This document shows positions 1 to 23,443 of a stretch of 40,275 nt of DNA, one piece after another. The stretch is from the IMG/VR virus record IMGVR_UViG_3300044940_000646, positions 1-40,275 of that record; one strand, 5' to 3'. Source of the stretch: a virus. How positions within the stretch are numbered: position 1 is the first letter of the stretch; every line of letters starts with the position of its first letter. Under the pieces are notes generated by a model. It worked only from the letters and a program-made list of their open reading frames with translations. It was not told the DNA's origin and made no database searches. The position numbers were made by a program, and so were the translations under genes.

Positions 1-107
1 AAATGATCAGTATCTGCTCTTGCTTTGTCGGTCATCGACACATGAGCAAAACGCTTTCTTTGCTCATCGGTCAAATATTCAAGAAGGAATTGCTTGAATC
101 TAATCAT
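1..107 (-). CDS. Array paralog, 5' fragment cut by the window edge
   Basis: The first 35 codons of another family member, beginning MIRFKQFLLEYLTDEQRKRF and running off the left edge. Its ATG (107-105) overlaps the TGA of the preceding gene (106-104). This shows that the array continues beyond the window. Confidence 0.9.
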   Translation of the reverse strand, partial: MIRFKQFLLEYLTDEQRKRFAHVSMTDKARADTDH

Positions 108-1828
108 TGAAAATACCTCTTATAATTAGGGTTCTTTTTTGCTGCTTCTCTTACTCTTTCATTTTTATCATTCAATGCTCTACTTAAATGTTCAGGATTT
201 GCATTTGGATGGCTTGCTGCTGCTTCTCTTATAACATAATCTTCATCACTTAAAGCTTTATGTAAATGTTCAGCATTTGCGTTTGGATGATTTGCTGCTG
301 CTGCTCTTACAAGAAATTCTTCGTCATTTAATGCTTTATGTAAATGTTCAGCATTTGCGTTTGGATGACCTGCTGCTGTTGCTCTTACAAGTAAATCTTC
401 GTCATCTAATGCTTTATGTAAATGTTCAGCATTTGCATTTGGATGTTTTGCTGCTGCTTCTCTTATAACATAATCTTCATTACTTAAAGCTTTATGTAAA
501 TGTTCAGCGTTTGCATTTGGATGACTTGCTGCAGCTAATCTTACTTTCCAGTTTTCATCATTTAGCGCTTTATGTAGATGCTCAGCATTTGCATTTGGAT
601 GTTTTGCTGCAGCTTCTCTTATAATATAGTTTCTATCATTTAATGCTTTATGTAAATGTTCAGCATTTGCATTTCGATTTTTTACTGCGGCTTCTCTTAT
701 ATAAACTCGTTCATCATTTAATGCCTTATGTAAATGTTCTGCATTTGCATTTGGATGACTTGCTGCTGCTACTTTTACAAAGAATTCTTCGTCATCTAAT
801 GCTTTGTGCAAATGTTCTGCGTTTGCATTTGGATGACTTGCTGCTGCTTTTCTTACAAGAACTTGTTCATCATTTAATGCTTTATGTAAATGTTCTGCAT
901 TCGCATTTATATGACTTGCTGCTGCTTTTCTTACAACAACTTGTTCATCATTTAATGCTTTATGTAAATGTTCAGCATTTGCATTTGGATGTTTAATTGC
1001 TGCAATTCTTACATTAGAATCTTTATTAGCTAAAGCTTTTGTAATATCTTCGTGTGTAGCTTTTGGATGTAGAATATGTTTTATACCATTGTGATTATAT
1101 ACTTCTGGATGTTTAACAAAAATATCGGGTTTGTATTCACCAGAAAGCTTTTTTGCTACTTCATGAGCGCTCTTTGTAAAAGCAGGATGTTTAATTCCAT
1201 ATTCAGAATCAATTGCATAAGCCACATGACCTTCTTTATTATGATGAGGTTGCAAAGTAGCACGATAAATTTCTTGACCGGTATGATCATGAACGCGATG
1301 AACAACAGTTCCGTGACGAATTTCGTGTTCTAAATAATGACGATTTGAACCAGTGTCTACGTTTTTACAACTTAATTGCGCCCATGAATGTCCTTTTGGA
1401 TGATGTAGATCTGGTGCGCTATTTGTTTGACCTGCAACCTCGATACCACGAACAGTTGAAGTCTTGAATACATTACCTTTTTTCACTCCTTCTCTTGTCG
1501 AATCAGAAGCGAATGCATTCCTTAATTTTTCGTCTTTGATAAGACGTCCAATTTTAACATCTCGTCCATACTTATCTTTTATCAATCCACGGCGATAGTC
1601 ATCGTGGTGAATTTCTTGACCAAGATGACGTTCAACAGCACGATGTACTTCACTCTTATGAAATTGATGACCGGCATCAGTTGAAATCTCACCATGAACT
1701 ATATCATTGTTTTTACCAAAAAAGTGATCTGTGCTTGCACGTGCTTTGTCAGTCATCGACACATGAACAAAACGCTTTCTTTGCTCATCAGTTAAGTATT
1801 CAAGAAGAAATTGCTTGAATTTAATCAT
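104..1828 (-). CDS. Array paralog with 12 helical repeats, 574 aa
   Basis: N-terminal domain about 1-253 (start MIKFKQFLLEYL), 12 repeats of 26 residues, then the NPNYKRYFQ end. The first repeat is atypical (THEDITKALANKD), which is also seen in the copy at 9497-11143. Variable residues before VR or IR read, in order, EQVV, EQVL, EEFF, ERVY, RNYI, ENWK, EDYV, EDLL, EEFL and EDYV, so they are rich in aromatic and hydrophobic side chains. It joins both neighbours by ATGA overlaps. The long plus-strand frames opposite this gene are shadows of the repeat codons. The start is fixed by the overlap and by the AGAGG ribosome-binding site inside the upstream gene's last codons. Confidence 0.93.
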   Translation of the reverse strand: MIKFKQFLLEYLTDEQRKRFVHVSMTDKARASTDHFFGKNNDIVHGEISTDAGHQFHKSEVHRAVERHLGQEIHHDDYRRGLIKDKYGRDVKIGRLIKDEKLRNAFASDSTREGVKKGNVFKTSTVRGIEVAGQTNSAPDLHHPKGHSWAQLSCKNVDTGSNRHYLEHEIRHGTVVHRVHDHTGQEIYRATLQPHHNKEGHVAYAIDSEYGIKHPAFTKSAHEVAKKLSGEYKPDIFVKHPEVYNHNGIKHILHPKATHEDITKALANKDSNVRIAAIKHPNANAEHLHKALNDEQVVVRKAAASHINANAEHLHKALNDEQVLVRKAAASHPNANAEHLHKALDDEEFFVKVAAASHPNANAEHLHKALNDERVYIREAAVKNRNANAEHLHKALNDRNYIIREAAAKHPNANAEHLHKALNDENWKVRLAAASHPNANAEHLHKALSNEDYVIREAAAKHPNANAEHLHKALDDEDLLVRATAAGHPNANAEHLHKALNDEEFLVRAAAANHPNANAEHLHKALSDEDYVIREAAASHPNANPEHLSRALNDKNERVREAAKKNPNYKRYFQ

Positions 1829-3237
1829 TGAAAATACCTCTTATAATTAGGGTTATTTTTTGCTGCTTCTCTTACTCTTTCATTTTCATCATTCAATGCT
1901 CTACGTAAATGTTCAGCATTTGCATTTGGATTTGATGCGGCAGCTTCTCTTATTTTCCATTCTTCATCATTCAATGCTTTATGTAAATGTTCAGCATTTG
2001 CATTTGAATGACTTGCTGCTGCTTCTCTCACAAATAATTCTTTATCATCTAATGCTTTGTGCAAATGTTCTTTATTAGCATTAGGATTTCTTGCTGCAAA
2101 CACTCTTACATAAGAATGTTCATCACTTAAAGCTTTATGCAAATTTTCAGCATTTGCATTTGGATGACTTGCTGCTGCTACTCTTACAAATAATTCTTTG
2201 TCATTTAATGCTTTATGTAAATGTTCTGAATTCGCATTTTTATGTTTTGCAGCGACTAATCTTACAACCCAATGTTTGTCATTAAGTGCTTTATGTAGAT
2301 GTTCTTCATTTGCATTTGGATGTCTAGCAGCTGCAATTCTTACACCTTTATTTTTATCATTGATTGCTTTATATAAATGTTCTGCAGTTGCGTTTGGATG
2401 ATTGATTGCTGCAATTTTTACATCAGGATCTTTATCATTTAACGATTTTGAAATATCTTCATGAGTTGCGTTTGGATGTAAAATATGTTTAATATTATTG
2501 TCGTTATATACTTCTGGATGTTTTTTGAATACACCTGGTTTGTATTCACCAGACAACTTCTTTGCTACTTCATGAGCGTTCTTCGTAAAAGCAGGGTGTT
2601 TAATTCCATATTCTGAATCGACTACATAAGCAATATGGCCGTGTTCGTTATGATATGGTTGAAGAGTTGCACGATATATTTCTTGACCAGTATGATCATG
2701 AACTCGATGAACGACAGTTCCATGACGAATTTCGTGTTCTAAATAATGACTTTTTGAACCAGTGTCTACATTTTTACAACTCAATTGAGCCCATGAATGT
2801 CCTTTTGGATGATGTGGATCTGGTGCACTATTTGTTTGACCGGCAACTTCAATACCACGAACAGTTGAAGTCTTGAATACATTACCTTTTTTTACTCCTT
2901 CTCTTGTCGAATCAGAAGCAAACGCATTCCTTAATTTCTCGTCTTTGATCAAACGTCCAATTTTAACATCTCGACCGTATTTGTCTTTTATGATTCCACG
3001 TCGATAATCATCATGATGAATTTCTTGACCAAGATGACGTTCAACAGCACGATGTACTTCACTCTTATGAAATTGATGACCAGCATCAGTTGAAATCTCA
3101 CCATGAACTATATCATTATCTTTACCAAAAAAGTGATCTGTGTCTGCACGTGCTTTATCAGTCATTGATACATGAGCAAAACGCATTCTTTGCTCATCAG
3201 TTAAGTATTCAAGAAGGAATTGCTTGAATCTAATCAT
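1825..3237 (-). CDS. Array paralog with 8 helical repeats, 470 aa
   Basis: The 253-residue domain (start MIRFKQFLLEYL) is followed by eight repeats and NPNYKRYFQ. Its first four repeats, including ATHEDISKSLNDKDPDVK and the HKNANSEHLHKALNDK repeat, closely match those at the start of the repeat tract in the copy at 21244-22734, about 19 kb away, although neighbouring copies differ. That is a sign of module exchange between distant copies. ATGA overlaps occur on both sides. Confidence 0.93.
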   Translation of the reverse strand: MIRFKQFLLEYLTDEQRMRFAHVSMTDKARADTDHFFGKDNDIVHGEISTDAGHQFHKSEVHRAVERHLGQEIHHDDYRRGIIKDKYGRDVKIGRLIKDEKLRNAFASDSTREGVKKGNVFKTSTVRGIEVAGQTNSAPDPHHPKGHSWAQLSCKNVDTGSKSHYLEHEIRHGTVVHRVHDHTGQEIYRATLQPYHNEHGHIAYVVDSEYGIKHPAFTKNAHEVAKKLSGEYKPGVFKKHPEVYNDNNIKHILHPNATHEDISKSLNDKDPDVKIAAINHPNATAEHLYKAINDKNKGVRIAAARHPNANEEHLHKALNDKHWVVRLVAAKHKNANSEHLHKALNDKELFVRVAAASHPNANAENLHKALSDEHSYVRVFAARNPNANKEHLHKALDDKELFVREAAASHSNANAEHLHKALNDEEWKIREAAASNPNANAEHLRRALNDENERVREAAKNNPNYKRYFQ

Positions 3238-4724
3238 TGAAAATACCTTTTATAGTTAGGATTCTTTTTTACTGCTTCTCTTACTCTTTTATTTTTATCA
3301 TCTAACGCTTTACGTAAATGTTCTGCATTTGCGTTTGGATTAGTTGCGGCGCTTTTTCTTACATCCCAGTTTTTATCATTCAATGCTTTATGCAAATGTT
3401 CAGCATTTGCATTTCGATGACTTGCTGCTGCTTTTCTTACAAAATGATTTTTATCATTCAATGCTTTGTGTAGATGTTCTGCGTTTGCATTTCGATGACT
3501 TGCTGCTGCTTTTCTTACATAGATATCTTCATCATTCAATGCTTTATGTAAATGTTCTGTGTTTGCATTTGGATGACTTGCTGCAAATTTTCTTACAAAG
3601 TCATCTTCATCATTCAACGCTTTGTGTAAATGTTCAGCATTTGCATTAGGATTTCTTACTGCAAACTCTCTTACATAAGGATGTTCATCACTTAAGGCTT
3701 TATGCAAGTTTTCAGCATTTGCATTTGGATGACTTGCTGCTTCTTTTCTTACATAGATATCTTCATCATTCAATGCTTTATGTAAATGTTCTGCGTTTGC
3801 ATTTGGATGACTTGCTGCAGCCTTTCTTACAAGGAAATCTTTATCATTCAACACTTTGTGCAAATGTTCTGCAGTTGCATTTAGATGAATTGCTGCTGCT
3901 AATCTTACAATCCAATCTTTGTCATTAAGTGCTTTATGTAAATGTTCTGCATTTGCGTTTGGATGCAAAATATGACTAATATCATTGTCATTATATACTT
4001 CTGGGTGTTTAACAAAAATACCAGGTTTGTATTCACCAGAAAGCTTTTTTGCTACTTCATGAGCACTTTTTGTAAAAATGGGATTCTTGATTCCATATTC
4101 TGAATCCACAGCATAAGCTATATCACCTCGTTCATTATGATGAGGCTGTAAAGTAGCACGGTAGATTTCTTGACCGGCATGATCATGAACACGATGAACA
4201 ACAGTTCCGTGACGAATTTCATTTTCTAAATAATTTTTATTTAAACCGTTATCTACATTTTTACAACTCAATTGAGCCCAAGAATGTCCTTTTGGATGAT
4301 GTGGATCTGGTTTACTATTTGTTTGACCTGCAACTTCGATACCACGAACCGTTGAAGTCTTGAATATATTACCTTTTCTTGATCCTTCTCTTGTCGGATC
4401 AGAAGCAAATGCGTTTCTTAATTTTTCATCTTTGATAAGTCTACCGATCTTCACTTCTCGACCATACTTATCTTTTATCAATCCACGGCGATAATCATCA
4501 TAATGAATTTCTTGACCAAGATGTCTTTCTACAGCACGATGAACTTCACTCTTGTGTTCATGATGTCCTGCATCAGTTGAAATTTCACCATGAACTATAT
4601 CATTATCTTTACCAAAAAAGTGATCTGTCCATGCACGTGCTTTGTCAGTCATCGACACATCAGCAAAACGTTTTCTTTGCTCATCAGTCAAGTATTCAAG
4701 AAGGAATTGTTTGAATTTAATCAT
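3234..4724 (-). CDS. Array paralog with 9 helical repeats, 496 aa
   Basis: Start MIKFKQFLLEYL; nine repeats; ends NPNYKRYFQ. There is no atypical first repeat: a standard HPNANAEHLHKALNDK unit follows HILHP directly. The variable string DIY-VRK occurs twice (repeats 3 and 6), suggesting internal copying. The N-domain carries HHEHKSEVH, where other copies have HQFHKSEVH. ATGA overlaps occur on both sides. Confidence 0.93.
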   Translation of the reverse strand: MIKFKQFLLEYLTDEQRKRFADVSMTDKARAWTDHFFGKDNDIVHGEISTDAGHHEHKSEVHRAVERHLGQEIHYDDYRRGLIKDKYGREVKIGRLIKDEKLRNAFASDPTREGSRKGNIFKTSTVRGIEVAGQTNSKPDPHHPKGHSWAQLSCKNVDNGLNKNYLENEIRHGTVVHRVHDHAGQEIYRATLQPHHNERGDIAYAVDSEYGIKNPIFTKSAHEVAKKLSGEYKPGIFVKHPEVYNDNDISHILHPNANAEHLHKALNDKDWIVRLAAAIHLNATAEHLHKVLNDKDFLVRKAAASHPNANAEHLHKALNDEDIYVRKEAASHPNANAENLHKALSDEHPYVREFAVRNPNANAEHLHKALNDEDDFVRKFAASHPNANTEHLHKALNDEDIYVRKAAASHRNANAEHLHKALNDKNHFVRKAAASHRNANAEHLHKALNDKNWDVRKSAATNPNANAEHLRKALDDKNKRVREAVKKNPNYKRYFQ

Positions 4725-6211
4725 TGAAAATACCTTTTATAGTTAGGGTTCTGTTTTGCTGCTTCTCTTACTTCTTTATACTTATCTCTCAATGCTTTGT
4801 GAAAATGCTCAGCATTCGCATTTGGATTTGATGCAGCAGCTTTTCTTATTTCCCATTCTTTGTCATTCAATGCTTTATGTAGATGCTCAGCATTTGCATT
4901 TGGATGTTTTGCTGCAGCTTCTCTTACTTTCCAGTTTTCATCATTTAGTGCTTTATGTAGATGTTCTACGTTTGCATTTGGATGATTTGCTGCCTCTTCT
5001 CTTACATAATGATGTTTATCATTTAGCGCTTTATGTAAATGCTGTGCATTTACATTTGGATTACCTGCTGCTGCTACTCTTACAAAGATATCTTCATCAT
5101 TTAGTGCTTTATGTAAATGCTCAGCATTTGCATTTGGATGTTTTGCTGCAGATATTCTTACCTCCCAGTTTTCATCATTCAATGCTTTGTGCAGATGTTC
5201 AGCATTTACATTTGGATGTTTTGCGGCAGCTTCTCTTACATAGATATTTTCATCATTCAATGCTTTGTGTAGATGTTCAGCATTTGCATTTGGATGTTTT
5301 GCTGCAGATATTCTTACCTCCCAGTTTTCATCATTCAATGCTTTGTGCAGATGTTCAGCATTTACATTTGGATGTTTTGCGGCTGCTTTTCTTACAAAAA
5401 ATTGTTTATCATTTAATGCTTTATGTAAATGTTCAGCATTTGCGCTTGGATGCAAAATACATCTAATATCATTTTCATTATAAACATCTGGATGTTTAAA
5501 GAAAACACCAGGCTTATATTCACCAGATAATTTATTTGCTACCTGATAAGCACTCTTTCTAAATGCAGGATTTTTGATTCCATATTCAGAATCAACTACA
5601 TAAGCCACATGACCTTTTTTATTATGATAAGGCTGTAAAGTAGCGCGATAGATTTCTTGTCCTGTATGATCATGAACACGATGAACTACAGTACCACGAC
5701 GGATTTCATTTTCTAAATAATGTTTATTTGAACCGGTATCTACATTTTTACAACTCAGTTGAGCCCATGAATGACCCTTTGGATGATGAGGATCTGGTGC
5801 ACTGTTTGACTGACCAGCAACTTCGATACCACGAACAGTTGATGTTTTGAACACGCCTGTTTTTCTTGATCCTTCTCTTGTCGAATCAGAAGCAAATGCA
5901 TTCCTTAATTTTTCATCTTTGATAAGACGTCCAATTTTAACATCTCGACCATACTTATCTTTTATCAATCCACGGCGATAGTCATCGTAATGAATTTCTT
6001 GACCAAGATGTCTTTCTACAGCACGATGTACTTCGCTCTTGTGTTCATGATGACTTGCGTCATGTGCAATTTCTCCATGAACAATATCATTTCCTTTTCC
6101 AAAGAAATGATCTGTGTCAGCACGAGCCTTTTTGGTCATTTTTACACGAGCAAACCTCTTTCGCTGTTCATCAGTCAAATATTCAAGAAGAAATTGCTTG
6201 AATCTAATCAT
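4721..6211 (-). CDS. Array paralog with 9 helical repeats and an internal duplication, 496 aa
   Basis: Start MIRFKQFLLEYL with a KMTKKARA variant; nine repeats; ends NPNYKRYFQ. The segment carrying ENWEVRISAAK is present twice, in near-identical DNA at about 5125-5230 and 5281-5386. The offset is 156 bases, exactly two repeat units. This is a recent in-frame duplication and shows how the tract grows. ATGA overlaps occur on both sides. Confidence 0.93.
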   Translation of the reverse strand: MIRFKQFLLEYLTDEQRKRFARVKMTKKARADTDHFFGKGNDIVHGEIAHDASHHEHKSEVHRAVERHLGQEIHYDDYRRGLIKDKYGRDVKIGRLIKDEKLRNAFASDSTREGSRKTGVFKTSTVRGIEVAGQSNSAPDPHHPKGHSWAQLSCKNVDTGSNKHYLENEIRRGTVVHRVHDHTGQEIYRATLQPYHNKKGHVAYVVDSEYGIKNPAFRKSAYQVANKLSGEYKPGVFFKHPDVYNENDIRCILHPSANAEHLHKALNDKQFFVRKAAAKHPNVNAEHLHKALNDENWEVRISAAKHPNANAEHLHKALNDENIYVREAAAKHPNVNAEHLHKALNDENWEVRISAAKHPNANAEHLHKALNDEDIFVRVAAAGNPNVNAQHLHKALNDKHHYVREEAANHPNANVEHLHKALNDENWKVREAAAKHPNANAEHLHKALNDKEWEIRKAAASNPNANAEHFHKALRDKYKEVREAAKQNPNYKRYFQ

Positions 6212-8091
6212 TGAAAATACTTTTTGTAGTTAGGATTATCTTTTGCTGCTTCTCTTACTTCTTCATTCTCATCATTCAATGCTTTGTGTAGATGTTCTGC
6301 GTTTGCATTTGAATGAATTGCTGCAGCCATTCTTACTTCCGAATGTTCATCATTCAACGCTTTATGTATATGTTCTGCAGTTGCGTTTGGATGTTTTGCA
6401 GCAGTATATCTCACTAACCATTCTTTATCATTCAATGCTTTATGTAAATGTTCTACATTTGCTTTTGGATGTTTTGCTGCCGCTTTTCTTACAAAGATAT
6501 CTTTATCATTCAACGCTTTGTGCAAATGTTCTGCATTTGCATTTGGATGACTTGCGGCAATTTTTCTTACTTCAAAATTTTTATCATTCAATGCTTTATG
6601 CAAGTTTTCAGCATTTGCATTTGGATGACTTGCTGCTGCTTTTCTTACTTCCAAATGTTTATCATTCAATGCTTTATGCAAGTTTTCAGCATTTGCATTT
6701 GGATTTTTTGCTGCAGCTTTTCTTACTTCCAAATATTTATCATTTAATGCTTTATTTAGGTGTTCTGCATTTGCATTTGGATTTTTTGCTGCAGCTTTTC
6801 TTACAAAAAAGCTAATTTTATCATTCAATGCTTTATGCAAGTTTTCAGCATTTGCATTTGGATGACTTGCTGCTGCTTTTCTTATTTCAAAATGTTCATC
6901 ATTCAATGCTTTATGCAAGTTTTCAGCATTTGCATTTGGATTTCTTGCTGCAGCCATTCTTACTTCAAAATGTACATCATTCAATGCTTTATGTAGATGT
7001 TCTGCAGTTGCGTTTGAATGACTTGCAGCAGCTTTTCTTATATGGACACTTTCATCATTTAATGCTTTGTGCAGATGTTCATCATTTAAATTTGGATGAT
7101 TTACAGCAGCGTTTCTTACAAAGGGGTGTTCATCATTCAATGCTTTATGCAGATGTTCAGCATTTAAATTTGGATGACTTGCAGCAGCTTTTCTTACTTC
7201 CAAATTTTTATCATTTAATGCTTTATGTAGATGTTCTGCGTTTACATTTGGATGACTTGCTGCTGCTAATCTTACTTCCAAATTTTTATTATTTAATGCT
7301 TTATGTATGCGTTCTGCAGTTGCATTTGGATGTAAAATATATTTAATACCATTATCATTATAAACTTTTGGATGTTTTTTAAAAATACCAGATTTATATT
7401 CACCAGATAGTTTCTTTACTATTTCATGAGCGCTCTTTCTAAATGCAGGGTGTTTGATTCCGTGTTCTGAATCAACAGCATAGGCAACATGACCATATTT
7501 GTTATGATGTGGTTGCAATGTTGCTCGATAGATTTCTTGACCTGTATGATCATGAACTCTATGGACGACAGTTCCATGACAAATTTCGTGCTCTAAATAA
7601 TGACGATTTGAACCGGTTTCTATATTTTTACAACTCAATTGAGCCCATGAATGTCCTTTTGGATGATGTAGATCTGGTGCACTGTTTGTCTGACCAGCAA
7701 CCTCGATACCACGAACAGTTGTCGTCTTGAATGTATTACCTTTTCTTGATCCTTCACGAGTAGAATCTGAAGCAAATCTATTTCTTAATTTCTCGTCTTT
7801 GATCAGACGTCCGATCTTGACATCCCGTCCATATTTGTCTTTAATAATTCCACGACGATAATCTTCAGAATGAATTTCTTGACCAAGATGTCTTTCAACA
7901 GCACGATGTACTTCACTCTTGTGTTCTTGATGTCCTGCATCATGAGTAATTTCACCATGAACGATGTCGTTTTCTTTTCCAAAGAAATGATCCGTATCAG
8001 CTCGTGCTTTGTCGGTCATAGATACATGAGCAAAACGCTTTCTTTGTTCGTCGGTTAGATATTCGATAAGGAATTTTTTAAAAGTAATCAT
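6208..8091 (-). CDS. Array paralog with 14 helical repeats, longest copy, 627 aa
   Basis: Start MITFKKFLIEYL; 14 repeats; ends NPNYKKYFQ. Many repeats use AENLHKALND in place of AEHLHKALND. Their variable triplets often end in Glu before VR (NLE, HFE, YLE, HLE, NFE, HSE), unlike the aromatic-rich neighbours, so this copy has its own binding-surface chemistry. One repeat is 27 residues long (KISFFVRK), which explains the odd total length. ATGA overlaps occur on both sides. Confidence 0.93.
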   Translation of the reverse strand: MITFKKFLIEYLTDEQRKRFAHVSMTDKARADTDHFFGKENDIVHGEITHDAGHQEHKSEVHRAVERHLGQEIHSEDYRRGIIKDKYGRDVKIGRLIKDEKLRNRFASDSTREGSRKGNTFKTTTVRGIEVAGQTNSAPDLHHPKGHSWAQLSCKNIETGSNRHYLEHEICHGTVVHRVHDHTGQEIYRATLQPHHNKYGHVAYAVDSEHGIKHPAFRKSAHEIVKKLSGEYKSGIFKKHPKVYNDNGIKYILHPNATAERIHKALNNKNLEVRLAAASHPNVNAEHLHKALNDKNLEVRKAAASHPNLNAEHLHKALNDEHPFVRNAAVNHPNLNDEHLHKALNDESVHIRKAAASHSNATAEHLHKALNDVHFEVRMAAARNPNANAENLHKALNDEHFEIRKAAASHPNANAENLHKALNDKISFFVRKAAAKNPNANAEHLNKALNDKYLEVRKAAAKNPNANAENLHKALNDKHLEVRKAAASHPNANAENLHKALNDKNFEVRKIAASHPNANAEHLHKALNDKDIFVRKAAAKHPKANVEHLHKALNDKEWLVRYTAAKHPNATAEHIHKALNDEHSEVRMAAAIHSNANAEHLHKALNDENEEVREAAKDNPNYKKYFQ

Positions 8092-14039: not shown

Positions 14040-14430
14040 TAAGAAATTTCCTGTTCTTTATTAAAATCTATTTTTTTTTATCATAAGTAGAAAAAGAAAT
14101 CAGTCAATACTTTAGCATGATTTGATGATTTTTTCTAAATTATTTATCATAAGTAGAAAAAAAATCAGTTAATGCTTTAGCATGACCCGATGAATTTGTT
14201 TAGAAAATAAGTTTGTAATACAAAAACACCGTCAGTTTTTTCTAACATCATTTTTTACCTTTTTCTTTTGAACCATAAGTTCTAGACGACAGACTTCAAT
14301 GAAGCAGAAACATGAGTTCGTTAGAACTTAGGCGTTTTATGCTTTAGCATAATCGTTGGTTGACAAAAAAAAGTTGACATAACTTCCAAAGTTATATATA
14401 AGAATATTGTCAACAGAAATGGAGACTAAA
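14040..14430. other. Non-coding island with direct repeats, palindromes and a possible small RNA
   Basis: No gene is seen. It holds two imperfect direct repeats of about 54 bases (from 14078 and 14144), each with TTATCATAAGTAGAAAAA followed by an ATRCTTTAGCAT palindrome. It also holds a 9-bp inverted repeat TAAGTTCTA/TAGAACTTA (14276-14284/14322-14330) enclosing a small CTTCA-AT-GAAG hairpin, a third ATGCTTTAGCAT (14339-14350) and a promoter for the next gene. The arrangement fits a regulatory region, but its regulator is unknown. Confidence 0.55.
14374..14400 (+). promoter_or_regulatory. Promoter for the 14431 gene, TTGACA-15-TATATA
   Basis: TTGACA (14374-14379) and TATATA (14395-14400) are separated by 15 bases. 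A second TTGACA lies 14 bases upstream, directly after the palindrome and GGT. The 15-base spacing matches the other phage promoters in the tRNA region. Confidence 0.55.
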
Positions 14431-14796
14431 ATGTCTGTCGGTAAGTTCTCTCCTTCGATCTCTCACATTCCTGGTCTGAAAGAAATGGATTTCGAAGATT
14501 TTTGTTTCAATGCCTACGGCGAAGAACCCGCCGAGTGGAACTTGGAAATGAAAAACCGTGGAGAAGTCTTTGATGAAAAGACTATGTTCATGAACTACGA
14601 TAAAGAAGGTTTTGACTTCTACGGTTATTCAGCCTTTAACATTGATGGCGACTATGTAGGGACTGGTAAAGGTATTGATCGTTACGGGTACACGGAATAC
14701 GATTACATTGATGATTCGATCAGAGGCGGGACTCTTTACGAAGACCTTCAATACTATGGAGGTGAGGTTTTGAGTGAATTTAAAAGAAAAAGATAA
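14431..14796 (+). CDS. Hypothetical acidic, aromatic-rich protein, 121 aa
   Basis: Start chosen at ATG 14431 (MSVGKFSPSISH) because GGAG lies six bases upstream (14421-14424); earlier in-frame starts lack this. The protein is acidic and rich in Tyr, Phe and Gly (FDFYGYSAF, DRYGYTEYDY), with no signal peptide, membrane segment or recognised domain. Codons are visibly richer in G and C than in neighbouring genes, which suggests a different origin. It lies on the strand opposite to the array and is followed by a strong terminator. Function unknown. Confidence 0.85.
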   Translation: MSVGKFSPSISHIPGLKEMDFEDFCFNAYGEEPAEWNLEMKNRGEVFDEKTMFMNYDKEGFDFYGYSAFNIDGDYVGTGKGIDRYGYTEYDYIDDSIRGGTLYEDLQYYGGEVLSEFKRKR

Positions 14797-14805
14797 AAAA
14801 TAAAA

Positions 14806-14834
14806 GGATAATTAGATTAATTATCCATCTTTTT
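14806..14834 (+). terminator. Rho-independent terminator after the 14431 gene
   Basis: A perfect 9-bp stem, GGATAATTA / TAATTATCC, with loop GAT, followed by ATCTTTTTC. Confidence 0.75.
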
Positions 14835-14981
14835 CTATTTCAACGTTTAACTCTTGTCAACCAACGATCGTGCTAAAGCATTGACCGTTTTTAAATATAA
14901 AAAGAGTTAGATATCAATATTTTATTGTTAACAAATATCTCTAAAAAAGAATCAATCTAAACTTTGAAAGGAGCATTTATT

Positions 14982-15206
14982 ATGAATAGAAGAACACTTA
15001 AAACAAAAAGCTATATTGATGAATATAAAACAAACTATGTTTTGTCTTATCTCATCTCTCTTGGTATTAAAAATGAACAACAAATGAAACAAATTGCTTC
15101 ATTAATTTTAGCTTCAAATATTGATTCTAATGTAAGAGATTCTGCAGAAGAACTTGCTTCTATGGAAATTGAAAAAATTAAAGAGTTTATTTTAAACAGT
15201 CATTAG
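14982..15206 (+). CDS. Hypothetical small protein, 74 aa
   Basis: ATG 14982 follows GAAAGGAG (14966-14973), a strong ribosome-binding site. The product (MNRRTLKTKSYIDEY at its start) looks helical and soluble, with a basic N-terminus and an acidic C-terminal half (EELASMEIEKIKEF). There is no recognised family. It converges with the array gene ending at 15226, leaving 19 bases between stops. Upstream lies an inverted copy of the ATGCTTTAGCAT / TTGACA motif pair found before the 14431 gene. Confidence 0.75.
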   Translation: MNRRTLKTKSYIDEYKTNYVLSYLISLGIKNEQQMKQIASLILASNIDSNVRDSAEELASMEIEKIKEFILNSH

Positions 15207-15225
15207 TAATTATAGATGAAGATTG

Positions 15226-16560
15226 TTATGAATACTTTACATCTTTTTTTATTCTTTTCATTGCTTCATTTCTTACTTCTTCATGATCATCATTTAATGC
15301 TTTATGCAAATGTTCTACGTTTGCATTTGAATGTTTGACTGCAGCCAATCTGACTGTCCAGTCTTTATCATTTAAAGCTTTATGTAAATGATTTGTATCT
15401 GCGTTTGGGTGTCTTGCAGCATTCAATCTTACTGATACACTTTCATCATTCAATGCTTTATGTAGATGATTTGATGATGCTTTTGGGTGTTTTGCTGCAA
15501 AAATTCTAACGTGCAATTTTTTATCATTCAATGCTTTGTTTAAATGTTCGGCATTTGCATTTGGATTGCTTGCGGCAGCAGTTCTTACGTGTGTATCATG
15601 ATCATTTAACGCTTTATGCAGATGTTCTGCAGTTGCATTTGGATGACTTGCTGCCGCTTCTCTTACAGAAAAATGTTCATCATTTAACGCTTTGTGCAAA
15701 TGTTCTGCAGTTACATTTGGATGATTTACTGCAGCTAATCTCACAATATAATCTTTATCATTTAATGCTTTATGTATGTGTTCTGCAGTTGCATTTGGAT
15801 GTAAAATATGCGTAATACCATTATCGTCATAAACGTCTGGATGTTTTTCAAACACACCAGGTTTATATTCACCGGATAACTTCTTTGCAATCTCGTGTGC
15901 ACTCTTTGTAAAATCAGGATGCTTGATTCCATATTCTGAATCCACAGCATAAGCCACATGACCTTCTTCGTTGTGATGAGGTTGTAAAGTTGCACGGTAG
16001 ATTTCTTGGCCTGTATGATCATGAACACGATGAACTACAGTTCCGTGACGAATTTCGTGTTTTAAAAAATTACTGTTTTTTCCATTATCTACATTTTTAC
16101 AACTCAATTGAGCCCAAGAATGTCCTTTTGGATGATGTGGATCTGGTACACTGTTTGACTGACCAGCAACTTCGATACCACGAACAGTACTTGTTTTAAA
16201 CATATTACCTTTTCTTGATCCTTCTCTTGTCGAATCAGAAGCAAATGCATTCCTTAATTTTTCGTCTTTGATCAAACGTCCAATTTTAACATCTCGACCA
16301 TACTTATCTTTTATCAATCCACGACGATAGTCATCATGATGAATTTCTTGACCAAGATGTCTTTCTACAGCACGATGAACTTCACTCTTGTGTTCATGGT
16401 GCGCTGCATTAGTTGAAATTTCACCATGAACTATATCATTGTCTTTGCCAAAGAAATGATCTGTATCAGCTCGCGCTTTATCAGTCATTGACACATGAGC
16501 AAAACGTTTTCTTTGTTCGTCAGTTAGATATTCTAATAAAAATCTTTTGAATGAAATCAT
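15226..16560 (-). CDS. Array paralog with 7 helical repeats and a divergent C-terminus, 444 aa
   Basis: Start MISFKRFLLEYL; 253-residue domain; seven repeats. It ends KRIKKDVKYS rather than NPNYKRYFQ. It is the last gene of the upstream block, so no following gene needs the ribosome-binding site that the usual C-terminal codons carry, which fits the loss of that sequence. Upstream is a 48-base gap in place of the usual ATGA overlap. Confidence 0.93.
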   Translation of the reverse strand: MISFKRFLLEYLTDEQRKRFAHVSMTDKARADTDHFFGKDNDIVHGEISTNAAHHEHKSEVHRAVERHLGQEIHHDDYRRGLIKDKYGRDVKIGRLIKDEKLRNAFASDSTREGSRKGNMFKTSTVRGIEVAGQSNSVPDPHHPKGHSWAQLSCKNVDNGKNSNFLKHEIRHGTVVHRVHDHTGQEIYRATLQPHHNEEGHVAYAVDSEYGIKHPDFTKSAHEIAKKLSGEYKPGVFEKHPDVYDDNGITHILHPNATAEHIHKALNDKDYIVRLAAVNHPNVTAEHLHKALNDEHFSVREAAASHPNATAEHLHKALNDHDTHVRTAAASNPNANAEHLNKALNDKKLHVRIFAAKHPKASSNHLHKALNDESVSVRLNAARHPNADTNHLHKALNDKDWTVRLAAVKHSNANVEHLHKALNDDHEEVRNEAMKRIKKDVKYS

Positions 16561-16608
16561 TGAAAAACTATTTTTATAATTATTCTTTTATATTTTAAAT
16601 TTAATTAT

Positions 16609-18180
16609 TTAAACCCTGTTTCGTTTATTTACATTCAAATTTTTTAATGCAGCAACTCTTACTCTAGCACTTTCATCATTTAATGCTTTCTGTAAATGTT
16701 CGGCTGTTGCATTTGGATGAGATGCTGCAGCTTCTCTTACATAAGGATCTTTATCATTTAAAGCTTTATGTAAATGTTCTGCATTTGCATTTGGATGACT
16801 TGCAGCAATTTCTCTTATTCCAAAATATTCATCATCTAGTGCCTTATGTAAATGTTCTGCATTTAAATTTGGATTATTTACTGCTGCTTCTCTTACAGAC
16901 CATTCTTTATCACTCAGTGCTTTATGCAGATGTTCAGCATTCGCATTTAAATTAGATGCAGCTGCTTTTCTTACATAATCATAATCATCGTTTAATGCTT
17001 TATGAAGATGTTCAGCATTTGCATTTGGATGGCTTGCTGCAAATTTTCTAATATTAATATCTTTATCATTCAATGCTTTATGTAAGTGTTCGGCTGTTGC
17101 ATTTGGATGTTTTGCTACTGCAGCTCTAACACTAACAGAAGGATCATTAATTGCTTTATCTAAATGTTTAATTGTTGCGTTTGGATTTCTTGCAGCTGCA
17201 GTTCTTATTACATGATCTTCATCATTAAGTGCTTTATTTAGATGTTCTGCTGTTACATTTGCATGACTTGCGGCAGCTTCTCTTACTTCCCAATGATCAT
17301 CATTCAATGCTTTAAATAAATGCTCTGCATTTACATATGGATGATTAATTGCTGCTAATTTCATGTCTAAATTTTTATGATCTAATATTTTATGTAAATG
17401 TTCTGAAGTTGTATTTGTATGTAAAATTTTTGTAATACCATTATCATTGTATACTTTTGGATGTTTTTTGAATATACCTGGTTTGTATTCACCAGAAAGC
17501 TTTTTTGCTACTTCGTGAGCACTTTTTGTAAAGGCGGGGTGCTTGATTCCATATTCAGAATCAACTGCATAAGCTACATGACCTTCTTCGTTGTGATGAG
17601 GTTGTAAAGTTGCACGGTAGATTTCTTGGCCTGTATGATCATGAACACGATGAACAACAGTACCGTGACGGATTTCATTTTCTAAATAATTTTTATATGA
17701 ACCAGTGTCTACATTTTTACAACTCAATTGAGCCCATGAATGACCTTTCGGGTGTTGTGGATTTGATGCACTATTTGTTTGACCGGCAACTTCGATACCA
17801 CGAACCGTTGAAGTCTTAAACACAGTACCTTTTTTCGAACCTTCACGCGTAGTATCTGATGCAAATGCATCTCTTAATTTTTTATCTTTAATTAAACGTC
17901 CAATTTTAACATCTCGACCATATTTGTCTTTTATGATTCCACGGCGATAGTCATCATGATGAATTTCTTGACCAAGATGTCTTTCTACAGCACGATGAAT
18001 TTCACTCTTGTGTTCATGATGGCCTGAATCAGCTGAAATCTCACCATGAACTATATCATTACCTTTACCAAAGAAATGATCTGTATCAGCTCGTGCTTTA
18101 TCAGTCATCGACACATCAGCAAATCGTTTTCTTTGTTCGTCAGTCAAGTATTCAAGAAGGAATTGTTTGAATCTAATCAT
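16609..18180 (-). CDS. Array paralog with 10 helical repeats and a decayed C-terminus, 523 aa
   Basis: Start MIRFKQFLLEYL; ten repeats, several divergent (TSEHLHKILDHKNLDMK, IKHLDKAINDPSVS). It ends LNVNKRNRV. The gap downstream (16561-16608) still reads like the canonical tail on the minus strand, with AATTATAAAAATAG then TTTTTCAATGATT, so the normal NYKRYFQ end was lost by mutation and the gene now stops early. It joins the upstream copy by an ATGA overlap. Confidence 0.93.
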   Translation of the reverse strand: MIRFKQFLLEYLTDEQRKRFADVSMTDKARADTDHFFGKGNDIVHGEISADSGHHEHKSEIHRAVERHLGQEIHHDDYRRGIIKDKYGRDVKIGRLIKDKKLRDAFASDTTREGSKKGTVFKTSTVRGIEVAGQTNSASNPQHPKGHSWAQLSCKNVDTGSYKNYLENEIRHGTVVHRVHDHTGQEIYRATLQPHHNEEGHVAYAVDSEYGIKHPAFTKSAHEVAKKLSGEYKPGIFKKHPKVYNDNGITKILHTNTTSEHLHKILDHKNLDMKLAAINHPYVNAEHLFKALNDDHWEVREAAASHANVTAEHLNKALNDEDHVIRTAAARNPNATIKHLDKAINDPSVSVRAAVAKHPNATAEHLHKALNDKDINIRKFAASHPNANAEHLHKALNDDYDYVRKAAASNLNANAEHLHKALSDKEWSVREAAVNNPNLNAEHLHKALDDEYFGIREIAASHPNANAEHLHKALNDKDPYVREAAASHPNATAEHLQKALNDESARVRVAALKNLNVNKRNRV

Positions 18181-19823
18181 TGAAAATACCTTTTATAGTT
18201 TGGATTTTTCTTTGCAGCTTTTCTTACTCTTTCATTTTCATCATTCAATGCTCTTTCTAAATGATATTTATTAGCATTCGGATTTTTTGCTGCTGATTCT
18301 CTTACAATCCAATGTTCATCATTTAATGCTTTATGTAAATGTTCAGCATTTGCATTTGGATTGCTTGCGGCAGCAGCTCTTACTTGTGTGTTATGATCAT
18401 TTAAAGCTTTATGTATGTGTTTTGCATTTGCATTTTGATTACTTGCAGCTGCTTCTCTTACAGGAAAATATTTATCGTTTAATGCTCTATTCAAATGTTC
18501 GGCATTTACATTTGGATTGTTTATTGCAGCATATTTTACAATATTAATTTTATCATTTAATGCTTTATGAAGGTGTTCGGCATTTGCATTTGGATGATTT
18601 GCTGCTGATTCTCTTACAATCCAATGTTCATCATTTAATGCTTTATGTAAATGTTCAGCATTTGCATTTGGATTGCTTGCGGCAGCAGCTCTTACGAGTG
18701 TGTTATGATCATTTAAAGCTTTATGCAAGTGTTCTGTATTTGCATTTTGATTACTTGCAGCTGCTTCTCTTACAGGAAAATCTTTATCATTCAATGCTTT
18801 ATATAAATGTTCAGCATTTGCATTTAAATTAGATGCTGCAGCTTTTCTTACATAATAATGTCCATCATTTAATGCTTTATGTAAATGTTCGGCATTTACA
18901 TTTGGATGACTTGCTGCTGCTTTTCTTACAATCCAATATTTATCATTTAAAGCTTTATGCAAGTGTTTATCATTTATATTTGGATGATTGATTGCTGCAA
19001 TTTTAACATCAAAATTTTCATCATTTAACGCTCTTAAGATATCTTCGTGTGTAGCTTTTGGATGTATAATATGTTTTATACCATTATTATTATATACTTC
19101 TGGATGTTTTTTGAATATACCTGATTTGTATTCACCAGAAAGACTTTTTGCTACTTCATGAGCACTTTTTGTGAAAGCTGGATTTTTGATTCCATATTCT
19201 GAATCCACAGCATAAGCTACATGACCTTCTTCATTATGATGAGGTTGTAAAGTTGCACGGTAGATTTCTTGTCCTGTATGATCATGAACACGATGAACAA
19301 CAGTACCATGACGAATCTCATGCCTCAGATAACTACGATTTGAACCAGTGTCAACATTCTTACAACTCAATTCGCCCCAAGAATGACCTTTTGGATGATG
19401 CGGATCTGGTGCACTGTTTGACTGACCCGCAACTTCAACTCCACGAACCGTTGATGTTTTGAACACACCTGTTTTTCTTGATCCTTCTCTTGTAGAATCA
19501 GAAGCGAATGCATTTCTTAATTTCTCGTCTTTAATCAAACGTCCAATTTTAACATCTCGTCCATATTTGTCTTTTATGATTCCACGACGATAATCATCGT
19601 GATGAATTTCTTGTCCAAGATGTCTTTCTACAGCACGATGCACTTCACTTTTATGTTCTATATGTCCCGCATTAGTTGAAATCTCACCATGAACTATATC
19701 ATTACCTTTGCCAAAAAAGTGATCCGTATCGGCTCGTGCTTTTTTGCTCATTTTTATATGAGCAAAACGTTTTCTTTGTTCGTCAGTTAGATATTCAAGA
19801 AGAAATTGTTTGAACGTGATCAT
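18177..19823 (-). CDS. Array paralog with 11 helical repeats and a duplicated three-repeat block, 548 aa
   Basis: Start MITFKQFLLEYL, KMSKKARA variant; 11 repeats; ends NPNYKRYFQ. Repeats 4-6 and 8-10 carry the same series of variable residues (FPV, then HNT, then EHWI). The matching DNA is offset by 312 bases, exactly four units (compare 18301 and 18613). The first two repeats match those of the copy at 11140-12552. It overlaps its downstream neighbour by ATGA. Confidence 0.93.
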   Translation of the reverse strand: MITFKQFLLEYLTDEQRKRFAHIKMSKKARADTDHFFGKGNDIVHGEISTNAGHIEHKSEVHRAVERHLGQEIHHDDYRRGIIKDKYGRDVKIGRLIKDEKLRNAFASDSTREGSRKTGVFKTSTVRGVEVAGQSNSAPDPHHPKGHSWGELSCKNVDTGSNRSYLRHEIRHGTVVHRVHDHTGQEIYRATLQPHHNEEGHVAYAVDSEYGIKNPAFTKSAHEVAKSLSGEYKSGIFKKHPEVYNNNGIKHIIHPKATHEDILRALNDENFDVKIAAINHPNINDKHLHKALNDKYWIVRKAAASHPNVNAEHLHKALNDGHYYVRKAAASNLNANAEHLYKALNDKDFPVREAAASNQNANTEHLHKALNDHNTLVRAAAASNPNANAEHLHKALNDEHWIVRESAANHPNANAEHLHKALNDKINIVKYAAINNPNVNAEHLNRALNDKYFPVREAAASNQNANAKHIHKALNDHNTQVRAAAASNPNANAEHLHKALNDEHWIVRESAAKNPNANKYHLERALNDENERVRKAAKKNPNYKRYFQ

Positions 19824-21153
19824 TAAAATATTTCCTATAATTTGGATTTTCCTTTGCAGCTTTTCTTACTCTTTCATTTTCATCATTCAATGCCTTATGT
19901 AAATGTTCTGCATTTACATTTGAATTATTTATAGCCGCGTATCTAACAAATTCATTATTATCATTTAAAGCTTTATGCAAATGTTCTGCATTTGCATTTG
20001 GATGACTTGCAGCTGCTTCTCTAACAACGAAGAAATTATCATGTAATGCTTTATGTAAATGCTCAGTATTTGCGTTTGGATTACTAGTCGCTGCTCTTCT
20101 AACAATATAATTTCGATCATTTAAAGCTTTATGCAAGTGTTCTGCATTTGCATTTTTATTACTTGCAGCTGCCATTCTTACTTCAAAATCTTTATCATTT
20201 AATGCTTTATGTAAATGATCTGACGATGCTTTTAAATGATAAGCTGCAATTTCTCTTACTCTTTTATCTTTGTCTTCTAATGCAGTTGAAATGTGTTCAG
20301 GTGTTATATTTGGATGTTGTATTGTTGCTATTCTTATATTTACATCTGAATGTTTTAATAATTTATGTAATGTTTCTTCTGTTGTGTCTGGATGCAAAAT
20401 ATATTTTTGACTATTATTATCATACACTTTTGCATGTTTAACAAAAATACCGGGTTTATATTCACCTGAAAGTTTTTTTGCTACTTTGTGAGAACTTCTT
20501 GTGAAAACAGGATGCTTGATTCCATATTCAGAATCCACGGAATAAGCTACGTCACCTCGTTCATTATGATGAGGCTGTAAAGTAGCACGATAAATTTCTT
20601 GACCGGTATGATCATGAATACGATGAACAACAGTTCCATGGCGAATTTCATTTTCTAAATAATACCTATTTGTTCCATCATCTACATTTTTACAACTCAA
20701 CTGAGCCCATGAGTGACCTTTTGGATGATGTGGATCTGGTGCGCTATTTGTTTGACCAGCAACTTCGATACCACGAACAGTGCTTGTTTTAAATATGCTA
20801 CCTTTTCTTGATCCTTCTCTTGTCGAATCAGAAGCAAATGCATCTCTTAATTTTTTATCTTTAATTAAACGTCCAATTTTAACATCTCGACCATATTTGT
20901 CTTTTATGATTCCACGACGATAATCATCATGATGAATTTCTTGACCAATATGACGTTCAACAGCGCGATGTACTTCACTCTTGTGTTCATGATGCCCTGC
21001 ATCAATTGAAATTTCACCGTGAACTATATCATTGTCTTTGCCAAAGAAATGATCCGTATCAGCTCTTGCTTTATCAGTCATTGATATATGAGCAAAACTT
21101 TTTCTTTGTGCATCAGTCAAATATTCTAATAGAAATAGTTTAAATGAAATCAT
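19795..21153 (-). CDS. Array paralog with 7 helical repeats and read-through tail, 452 aa
   Basis: Start MISFKLFLLEYLTDAQRKSF, a divergent N-terminus; seven repeats, the first two far from consensus (TTEETLHKLLKHSDVN, ITPEHISTALEDKDKR). The junction reads TTTTAATGATC where other copies have TTTCAATGATT or TTTAAATGATT. One base is missing, so the stop is bypassed and the protein ends YRKYFNDHVQTISS, overlapping the next gene by 29 bases. Upstream is a 90-base gap with a truncated start. Confidence 0.93.
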   Translation of the reverse strand: MISFKLFLLEYLTDAQRKSFAHISMTDKARADTDHFFGKDNDIVHGEISIDAGHHEHKSEVHRAVERHIGQEIHHDDYRRGIIKDKYGRDVKIGRLIKDKKLRDAFASDSTREGSRKGSIFKTSTVRGIEVAGQTNSAPDPHHPKGHSWAQLSCKNVDDGTNRYYLENEIRHGTVVHRIHDHTGQEIYRATLQPHHNERGDVAYSVDSEYGIKHPVFTRSSHKVAKKLSGEYKPGIFVKHAKVYDNNSQKYILHPDTTEETLHKLLKHSDVNIRIATIQHPNITPEHISTALEDKDKRVREIAAYHLKASSDHLHKALNDKDFEVRMAAASNKNANAEHLHKALNDRNYIVRRAATSNPNANTEHLHKALHDNFFVVREAAASHPNANAEHLHKALNDNNEFVRYAAINNSNVNAEHLHKALNDENERVRKAAKENPNYRKYFNDHVQTISS

Positions 21154-21220
21154 TTAAATTTTTCCTTATAATTTTTTTTAATTATTTGTTTTTATTACTT
21201 ATTACTATTTACTAGATATT

Positions 21221-21247
21221 CTAGTGAAATTGTTTAAATGAATTCAT
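21221..21247 (-). pseudogene. Eight-codon remnant of an array paralog start
   Basis: On the minus strand an ATG overlapping the TGA of the copy at 21244-22734 (the usual ATGA junction) opens MNSFKQFH followed by TAG. This matches the family N-terminus (M-x-x-FKQF) and then breaks off. It is most simply a paralog lost by deletion. A short leader peptide is less likely. Confidence 0.6.
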
Positions 21248-22734
21248 TTTAATTCTGTCTTATGATTTAAATTCTCTTTTGCTGCTTTTCTTACTCTTTC
21301 ATCTTCATCATTAAGTGCTTTATATAAATGTTCTACAGTTATATTTGGATGCCTTATAGCAATCCATCTTATTGGCCATTCTTTATCATTTAGTGCTCTA
21401 TGCAAATGTTCAGCGTTTGCATTTGGATTTCTAATTGCTTCAATTCTTACATTATAATCTTTATCATCTAATGCTTTATGTAGATGTTCAGCGTTTGCAT
21501 TTGGATGTTTTGCTGCAAGCATTCTTACATAATGACTTTTATCATTTAAAGCTTTATGAATATTTTCAGCATTTGCATTTTTATTTTTTATAGCAGCTTC
21601 TCTTATAAATTGATTTTTATCATTTAAAGCTTTTGAGATGTGTTCATGTGTTGCATTTTTATTCATAATTGCTGCTTTTTTTACATCAGGATCTTTATCA
21701 TTTAATGCTTTATGCAAATGTTCTGAATTCACATTTTTATGTTTTACTGCGACTAATCTTACAACCCATTCTTTGTCATTCAATGCTTTATGTAGATGTT
21801 CTGAATTCAAATTTGGATGTCTAGCAGCTGCAATTCTTACACTATTATTTTTATCATTGAGTGCTTTATGTAAATGTTCTGCAGTTGCATTTGGATGATT
21901 GATTGCTGCAATTTTTACATCAGGATCTTTATCATTTAACGATTTTGAAATATCTTCATGAGTTGCGTTTGGATGTAAAATATGTTTAATATTATTGTCG
22001 TTATATACTTCTGGATGTTTTTTGAATACGCCTGGTTTATATTCACCAGAAAGCTTTTTTGCTATTTCATGAGCACTTCTTGTGAAAGCTGGATTTTTGA
22101 TTCCATATTCAGAATCAACTAAATAAGCTACATGATTATGTTCGTTATGATAAGGCTGTAAAGTAGCACGGTAGATTTCTTGTCCTGTATGATCATGAAC
22201 ACGGTGAACAACAGTACCATGACGGATTTCATTTTCTAAATAATGTCTATTTGAACCGGTGTCTACGTTTTTGCAACTCAGCTGAGCCCAAGAGTGACCT
22301 TTTGGATGCTGTGGATCTGGTGCGCTGTTTGTTTGACCGGCAACTTCAATTCCTCTAACAGTTGATGTTTTAAATAAATTACCTTTTTTTACTCCTTCTC
22401 TCGTAGAATCAGATGCAAATGCATTTCTTAATTTTTCATCTTTGATTAGACGTCCAATTTTAACATCTCTTCCATACTTATCTTTTATGATACCTTTACG
22501 ATAATCATCATGATTAATTTCTTGACCAAGATGTCTTTCAACAGCTTTATGAACTTCACTTTTATGTTCTATATGCCCCGCATCAGTTGAAATTTCACCG
22601 TGAACGATATCATTATCTTTTCCAAAGAAATGATCCGTGTCGGCTCGAGCTTTGTTGGTCATTTTTACGTGAGCAAATCGTTCTTTTTGTTTATCGGTAA
22701 GATATTCTAACAAAAATTTTTTAAAAGTTAACAT
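21244..22734 (-). CDS. Array paralog with 9 helical repeats, first gene of the array, 496 aa
   Basis: Start MLTFKKFLLEYLTDKQKERF; nine repeats; ends LNHKTELK in place of NPNYKRYFQ. It lies directly behind the late-promoter word at 22777-22784 and has AGGAA before its ATG. Its opening repeats are shared with the copy at 1825-3237. The next junction has decayed. Confidence 0.93.
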   Translation of the reverse strand: MLTFKKFLLEYLTDKQKERFAHVKMTNKARADTDHFFGKDNDIVHGEISTDAGHIEHKSEVHKAVERHLGQEINHDDYRKGIIKDKYGRDVKIGRLIKDEKLRNAFASDSTREGVKKGNLFKTSTVRGIEVAGQTNSAPDPQHPKGHSWAQLSCKNVDTGSNRHYLENEIRHGTVVHRVHDHTGQEIYRATLQPYHNEHNHVAYLVDSEYGIKNPAFTRSAHEIAKKLSGEYKPGVFKKHPEVYNDNNIKHILHPNATHEDISKSLNDKDPDVKIAAINHPNATAEHLHKALNDKNNSVRIAAARHPNLNSEHLHKALNDKEWVVRLVAVKHKNVNSEHLHKALNDKDPDVKKAAIMNKNATHEHISKALNDKNQFIREAAIKNKNANAENIHKALNDKSHYVRMLAAKHPNANAEHLHKALDDKDYNVRIEAIRNPNANAEHLHRALNDKEWPIRWIAIRHPNITVEHLYKALNDEDERVRKAAKENLNHKTELK

Positions 22735-22776: not shown

Positions 22777-22784
22777 TATTTATA
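22777..22784 (-). promoter_or_regulatory. T4-type late promoter (TATAAATA) for the array
   Basis: The minus strand reads TATAAATA, the exact T4 late -10 word, about 43 bases before the first array gene. Late transcription would suit virion proteins and agrees with the gp33-like gene in this window. In DNA this AT-rich the word can arise by chance, so position is the main support. Confidence 0.6.
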
Positions 22785-23233: not shown

Positions 23234-23443
23234 ATGGCTACTTTAAATAGTGGTTTTTCAATTGCTCGTGGTAGTAAAATAAGTGACGAAGATCGTACAT
23301 TAATTGAAGAATATATTCGAACTAAAGGAATTAAAAAAATTTCACCGAGCAGCGTAAAAGGTAGCGAAATTTCTCGTGCAACTCGAGAAAATATTGTCAT
23401 TGCAAAACGCGAATTTTATAAGATTTATAAAAAATCCAAGTGA
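23234..23443 (+). CDS. Hypothetical basic protein, 69 aa
   Basis: ATG 23234 with AAAGGAG upstream. A small basic protein (MATLNSGFSIARGSKISDED at its start, KKSK at its end), no recognised domain. It precedes gene 39 and ends 13 bases before the chosen start of 39, so the two are likely cotranscribed from the 23177 promoter. Confidence 0.75.
   Translation: MATLNSGFSIARGSKISDEDRTLIEEYIRTKGIKKISPSSVKGSEISRATRENIVIAKREFYKIYKKSK

Follow-up and report, generated by a model that had tools for sequence, protein, structure and literature searches.

Hypervariable repeat protein paralogs with a T4-type leader sequence form a tandem array in a metagenomic phage fragment

The virus record IMGVR_UViG_3300044940_000646, a metagenomic fragment of 40,275 bases (here the window), carries a tandem array of paralogous repeat proteins, and this single family takes up more than half of the 40 kb. 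Every copy consists of a short N-terminal leader, a domain of ~243 residues (the N-domain) and a series of 26-residue repeats, the first repeat starting at residue 254. The leader resembles the T4 capsid targeting sequence (CTS), and the variable positions of the repeats coincide with those of artificial alphaRep binding proteins. On balance, the array probably encodes proteins that are packaged in the phage head, injected, and provided with an alphaRep-like variable binding face. By analogy it is most likely a multi-target version of the anti-defense internal proteins (IPs) of T4.

Injected anti-defense proteins are already known, as are the leader and the repeat fold. Searches of the open-access literature (subscription papers lay outside them) turned up no tandem, hypervariable, head-targeted repertoire of repeat proteins in a phage and no report of hypervariable HEAT/LRV arrays in phages. 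An earlier interpretation, made from the letters of this DNA (the sequence-only reading), had stated that no phage system of this form is described. That statement misses T4 IPI-III, which are injected anti-restriction proteins and a close functional precedent (PMC12373910).

Organization of the array

Fourteen complete paralogous open reading frames are found on the minus strand within positions 104–22734 (Table 1). Positions 1 to ~103 encode the N-terminus of a fifteenth, and the array therefore extends past the left edge of the window. The sequence-only reading had counted at least 15 paralogs and about 132 repeat units; both figures stand, the unit count being exactly 132. Paralog masses are 49–70 kDa, and the N-domains are 80–92% identical between sampled pairs. 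Neighboring genes mostly share a four-base overlap (ATGA). The stretch that encodes the conserved C-terminal tail, NPNYKRYFQ, also contains ribosome-binding sequence for the gene that follows, an arrangement consistent with whole-gene cassettes having been duplicated in tandem. The copy number rests on a metagenomic assembly; the paralogs diverge by 17–25% in DNA sequence, thus collapse or chimerism in the assembly is less likely.

Only two small plus-strand open reading frames interrupt the array. The first (129 aa, positions 14407–14796) is flanked by inverted repeats of 28 nt that are 93% complementary (TTGTCAACCAACGAT..TGCTAAAGCAT), and the segment 14339–14881 is possibly, from this arrangement, a small mobile or invertible cassette. 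The second (80 aa, positions 14964–15206) gives a weak importin-beta/HEAT-like match (E-value = 5e-4) that narrowly misses the cut-off, and its SNVRDSAEE stretch resembles one of the array repeats on the opposite strand.

Leader sequence and probable head packaging

All copies start with MxxFKxFL(L/I)E, and M1, F4, K5, F7, L8 and E10 are invariant in 14 of 14. The N-terminus of T4 IPII and IPIII is MKTYQEFIAE. The first ten residues of T4 IPIII are enough for packaging, residues 4 and 7 serving in targeting and residues 8 and 10 in processing by gp21 (PMC9026906). The array leader matches the T4 sequence at all four of these mapped residues. It had been overlooked in the sequence-only reading. 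A leader site, (I/L/V)xE, is kept at constant spacing from the N-domain in 35 of 36 relatives, even though the peptide ahead of it differs in length, e.g. MFKFSHFKKIIKE/ELS and MKTFKTFLAE/ELN (the slash marks the site). The E of this site is invariant in 53 domain sequences. Residues 1–9 are predicted to be disordered (predicted local distance difference test, pLDDT, ~32).

The leader is also found on other proteins. In G002, a 282-kb relative, 12 open reading frames carry it at their start, 7 of which are outside the window family (one of them a GNAT), compared with 0 of 1377 internal methionines used as control (Fisher P = 7e-7). A second relative, G006, has 5 leader-bearing open reading frames, HicA-like and ASCH-like ones among them. 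The non-family proteins of these two genomes include GNAT, DUF6934, HicA-like and ASCH-like domains as well as unknowns (L056, L058, L059, L048, L053-L055). The same leader fused to unrelated domain types is as expected of a cargo tag.

A 1822 aa open reading frame in another contig (L024:1112-6580) displays a P-loop-like N-terminus (GGPGSGKD) followed by two leader-domain-repeat modules, each with an (S)LLE site. Its layout makes it a possible polyprotein processed by a prohead protease.

The array is flanked by genes for topoisomerase II subunits (positions 23376–26671, beside the array) and gp32 (39166–40134), and the window is on this account assigned to a T4-related phage. Among the contigs of 12 relatives, 7 encode a T4-type gp21 (PF03420, E-values 1e-29 to 1e-40); gp23 is also found in relatives' contigs (to E-value = 5e-153), and the closest relative has both. 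The T4-type late promoter element TATAAATA precedes the first array gene, and it is also present at −38 of the G002 array and at −40 of both gp23 and gp21 in the relative G001. Overall the element is not enriched in the window (10 occurrences against 15 expected), so that its position alone carries information.

Within the G002 array, between members of the family, lies a protein that joins a leader and LRV repeats to a different N-terminal domain (positions 218107–220311). Its homolog, EST35_0205 of Pseudomonas phage PA5oct, bears the annotation 'structural protein, ESI-MS/MS'. This shows that the sister architecture is present in virions, without thereby establishing the presence of the window family itself. 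A CTS scan of PA5oct gave few other leader-bearing proteins, so the leader system is sparse in that phage.

Taken with the leader, these observations make packaging of the array proteins in the head quite likely, and for the window proteins we infer cleavage, packaging and injection. Host surface proteins, suggested as ligands by the sequence-only reading, are less likely targets because the T4-type leader on every copy implies head packaging and delivery to the cytoplasm.

Repeat fold and the variable face

The repeats match the Pfam profiles HEAT (to E-value = 2e-32) and LRV (to 1e-27) above the curated cut-off, and the predicted structure is a two-helix solenoid; they are members of the HEAT/LRV superfamily by both. 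An AlphaFold2 model of paralog 2, made with a 36-sequence alignment, gives a pLDDT of 87.9 overall and ~98 for the solenoid. Foldseek against the PDB shows 1LRV as the top match, and also PP2A scaffold subunits and alphaRep complexes. The best sequence matches among all PDB chains are artificial alphaRep proteins (E-value = 3e-16), the alignment being ALNDKHWVVRLVAA / ALKDEDWLVRFSAA. The repeat region gave no match to phage isolates, for which a low-complexity filter is possibly responsible.

Variation is concentrated at a few positions of the unit. Over 103 internal units, per-position entropy is 2.1 bits at position 16, 2.8 at 17, 3.5 at 18, 3.6 at 19, 2.9 at 22, 1.7 at 23 and 2.2 at 26; nearly all other positions fall between 0.1 and 1.5 bits. 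The residues at 16–19 and 22 are distinct in 113 of 131 units. Aromatic residues make up 38% at positions 18 and 19 as compared with 1.3% at other positions. In every gene the final unit, a predicted cap, is not hypervariable at 18 and 19 and carries E/R there (P < 0.0005). Relatives in other phages have the same repeat positions among their most variable.

In alphaRep libraries, positions 18, 19, 22, 23, 26 and 30 of a 31-residue unit are randomized, and these residues supply much of the contacts in solved complexes (PMC3754942). The numbering is common to both repeats, therefore the variable positions of the phage repeats are placed on the alphaRep binding face; 18, 19, 22, 23 and 26 of the second helix all vary in the phage units, 23 only moderately. 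On a helical wheel of the second helix, variable positions 18, 22, 26 and 19 lie at 0, 40, 80 and 100 degrees, and conserved positions 20, 24 and 21 at 200–300 degrees. Exposure of the variable positions is read from this wheel and the alphaRep equivalence, not from coordinates.

The ratio of nonsynonymous to synonymous change (dN/dS) is 2.1 at positions 18 and 19, 1.3 at 17/18/19/22 and 0.20 in the scaffold, by a counting method over all unit pairs, the units being non-independent and partly recombined. At hypervariable sites, the nonsynonymous proportion (pN) exceeds the whole-unit synonymous proportion (pS) by 1.37 (bootstrap 1.30–1.45). In close pairs, picked by scaffold similarity, pS is also higher at the variable positions (0.30 vs 0.14), which is expected if contact segments sometimes swap as blocks. 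Two near-identical contigs, L013 and L014, encode an array-family protein that differs by exactly one 26-residue unit; turnover of units is therefore recent.

Two other sources of diversity were considered and rejected. Frequent block recombination between genes as the main source would leave more than the few runs of 2–3 units found. A diversity-generating retroelement target does not fit, since the window and 5 of 6 relatives lack a reverse transcriptase and TGG is the most frequent codon at position 18. G002 is the one exception among the relatives checked, with a reverse transcriptase domain at positions 151538–152122 (L102, in a 398-aa frame).

These comparisons give good support to a solenoid whose scaffold is fixed and whose predicted binding face is diversified and rich in aromatic residues. 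This was the core of the sequence-only reading, which had named two conditions that would refute it, buried variable positions and the same pattern of variation at synonymous sites. Neither applies, as the variable positions fall on a single second-helix arc that coincides with the randomized positions of alphaRep, and the variation is nonsynonymous. The results do not support a TALE-like code, with one unit reading one ligand letter through fixed residues, to which the sequence-only reading had compared the array. Its list of hypervariable positions, 16–19 and 22, needs amending: 26 (and weakly 23) was left out, and 16 is mostly a two-way switch between E and K.

Proposed mechanism

At least 15 head-internal proteins would be made late in infection. 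The 10-residue T4-type CTS would steer each into the prohead core, where a phage gp21-like prohead protease would trim the leader after E10, and the trimmed protein would be packaged alongside the genome and enter the next host by injection. In its mature form it would consist of the conserved basic domain of ~243 residues and a HEAT/LRV solenoid of 7–14 units, the first and last units acting as caps and the internal units displaying the variable face (positions 17, 18, 19, 22 and 26). Each paralog would most likely have its own host protein as target, defense-enzyme variants being the most plausible candidates. The repertoire would grow by whole-gene tandem duplication, by gain and loss of single units, and by selection for amino acid change at the contact positions.

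That the variable face binds host proteins is rather probable, somewhat less so than packaging. An anti-defense function is weakly suggested by the likeness to T4 IPs, and the targets named above, together with any role of the N-domain, are offered as hypothesis only. The complete proposal, a virion that carries a pre-formed repertoire of natural alphaRep-like binders, at least 15 injected paralogs, diversified by selection and disarming many host proteins at infection, falls a little short of an even chance.

The N-domain and alternative explanations

Modeled alone, the N-domain has a pLDDT of 84 and a mixed alpha/beta structure. It matches no Pfam, PHROG, NCBIfam or PADLOC family, the array proteins match no PADLOC model of known anti-phage defense, and no bacterial or archaeal homologs were found when looked for. 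A fold search gave no significant match. The best hit, a partial GNAT-like sheet (E-value = 0.04), and a T4 lysozyme profile match in the PDB (E-value = 0.12) are both judged chance or too weak; homology with the WCTAA domain of the G002 neighbor was likewise rejected (hhalign probability 0.7%). By sequence comparison the N-domain is a new domain family. It may be an effector or a handling domain.

The effector possibility underlies an alternative compatible with the proposal above, in which injected enzymes or toxins, like T4 Alt or polyvalent proteins, have the N-domain as catalytic part and the solenoid only picks the substrate. The N-domain is far better conserved than the repeats, has invariant polar/Gly/Cys motifs (TDHFFGK, KSE.H, VAGQT, SW..SCKN, HGT, HD..G.EI.RAT) and occurs repeat-free in jumbo phages, all of which speaks for this alternative; however, with no enzyme family or fold matched, this explanation is possible but on the unlikely side.

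Considerably less probable are head-internal structural or DNA-condensing proteins, whose solenoids would pair paralogs so that the variation is an internal matching code not directed at the host. The leader, the head genes of the carrier phages and the influence of T4 IPIII on head assembly (PMC9026906) would fit, as would the basic mature proteins (isoelectric point 8–9.4), whose positive charge lies chiefly in the N-domain. Several repeat regions, however, are neutral or acidic. Relatives hold 1 to 6 copies, so a head needs no large number, and the 113 distinct quintets, together with a dN/dS near 2, resemble an external arms race more closely.

A repertoire for exclusion of, or immunity to, co-infecting relatives with matching paralogs would account for the paralogous, polymorphic, tandem organization and for unit gain and loss between near-identical contigs. 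But no copy has an immunity partner gene, the plus-strand interruptions being only two, and a late promoter with a head leader suits delivery into new hosts; such inter-phage competition is improbable. Neutral divergence of a low-constraint repeat protein, although repeats readily expand and contract, is contradicted by the purifying selection on the scaffold beside ratios of 1–2 at contact positions, by the aromatic bias and by the same positions varying in independent phages, and has hardly any probability left.

Several points weigh against packaged, injected binders as the explanation. The window family is known here from sequences and predicted models alone, and neither gp21 nor gp23 is found in the 40 kb, both being known from the relatives only. 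The PA5oct sister protein has another N-terminal domain and a looser leader match (MKLFEVFTLYE), and the mass spectrometry list of that phage includes enzymes not thought to be structural. Lu11-type homologs of the N-domain have neither leader nor repeats. The array proteins are far larger than IPI-III (T4 Alt, however, is also large), and the counting method is applied to units that share history.

Coordinates and neighboring genes

Table 1. Coordinates of the array genes and associated features in the window
Feature	Positions	Strand	Description
Paralog 15	1–103	−	N-terminal fragment RFKQFLLEYLTDEQRKRF... only; frame reads RFKQFLLEYLTDEQRKRFAHVSMTDKARADTDH
Paralog 1	104–1828	−	574 aa; leader, N-domain and 12 repeats
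Paralog 2	1825–3237	−	470 aa; 8 repeats; copy used for structure prediction
Solenoid example	1828–2478	−	Paralog 2 residues 254–470; 26-residue HEAT/LRV units; ends in conserved caps (last unit and tail NPNYKRYFQ)
N-domain example	2479–3207	−	Paralog 2 residues 11–253; 'TDHFFGK' family; mixed alpha/beta
Leader example	3208–3237	−	Paralog 2 residues 1–10, MIRFKQFLLE; predicted cut after E10
Paralog 3	3234–4724	−	496 aa; 9 repeats
Paralog 4	4721–6211	−	496 aa; 9 repeats
Paralog 5	6208–8091	−	627 aa; 14 repeats, one unit of 27 aa
Paralog 6	8088–9500	−	470 aa; 8 repeats
Paralog 7	9497–11143	−	548 aa; 11 repeats
Paralog 8	11140–12552	−	470 aa; 8 repeats
Paralog 9	12549–14039	−	496 aa; 9 repeats
Paralog 10	15226–16560	−	444 aa; 7 repeats
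Paralog 11	16609–18180	−	523 aa; 10 repeats
Paralog 12	18177–19823	−	548 aa; 11 repeats
Paralog 13	19795–21153	−	452 aa; 7 repeats
Paralog 14	21244–22734	−	496 aa; 9 repeats; first gene of array
Late promoter element	22777–22784	−	TATAAATA, T4-type; 50 nt upstream of first array gene

Outside the array, a permuted, alphaproteobacterial-type transfer-messenger RNA (tmRNA) is found at positions 36362–36724 on the plus strand (Rfam tmRNA_permuted 100 bits, alpha_tmRNA 81 bits). It encodes the tag ANDNFAIEDRLAA, and 4–5 tRNAs are near it. The tmRNA type hints at an alphaproteobacterial host. Three further plus-strand genes, judged by eye from their translations, are Dps-like (33212–33658), heme-oxygenase-like (36767–37330) and S-adenosylmethionine-decarboxylase-like (27421–27792); the first two have counterparts in G002.

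Implications and comparison with known systems

Leader-guided packaging and ligand binding via five positions per unit are the predictions of the injected-binder explanation. If true, a pre-formed binder repertoire would be the phage equivalent of the receptor repertoires of immune systems, and one diversified head-targeted scaffold over more than half of 40 kb suggests a general answer to the problem of many defenses. The array would be a set of natural binder libraries on a type of scaffold that protein engineers had to design. The leader and protease together offer a sequence handle for surveys of the cargo that uncultured phages inject; the leader-bearing open reading frames of G002 and G006 form a candidate catalog, extendable to other T4-type phages.

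Each of T4 IP1, IP2 and IP3 acts as the inhibitor of its own GmrSD variant, without cross-protection, and related phages carry at least ten IPs (PMC12373910). The array shares with these injected inhibitors of GmrSD type IV restriction the N-terminal targeting sequence (F/Y4, F7, hydrophobic 8 and E10 in IPII/IPIII), a set of several non-redundant proteins in one phage and polymorphism between phages, and its relatives have T4-type head genes. IPs are small and mutually unrelated past the leader, whereas the array proteins share one large solenoid architecture, present at least 15 times and varied at set contact positions.

EST35_0205 of PA5oct and its relatives in Pseudomonas jumbo phages resemble the array proteins in a leader-like N-terminal peptide, and EST35_0205 has been detected in virions by mass spectrometry; they differ in the N-terminal domain, for which profile comparison shows no homology. 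Polyvalent proteins of phages and conjugative elements are also large and predicted to enter by injection with the DNA (PMC5512222), but have many enzymatic domains per chain in place of one domain, a solenoid and many paralogs.

The repeats belong with LRV/HEAT proteins such as 1LRV of Azotobacter by Pfam and by fold. LRV proteins are not otherwise known to form tandem arrays of hypervariable paralogs. AlphaRep proteins are among the best fold matches, with variable positions 18, 19, 22, 23 and 26 numbered identically. They consist, however, of engineered 31-residue HEAT-like units, while the phage units are natural, 26-residue LRV/HEAT repeats joined to a leader and a unique domain.

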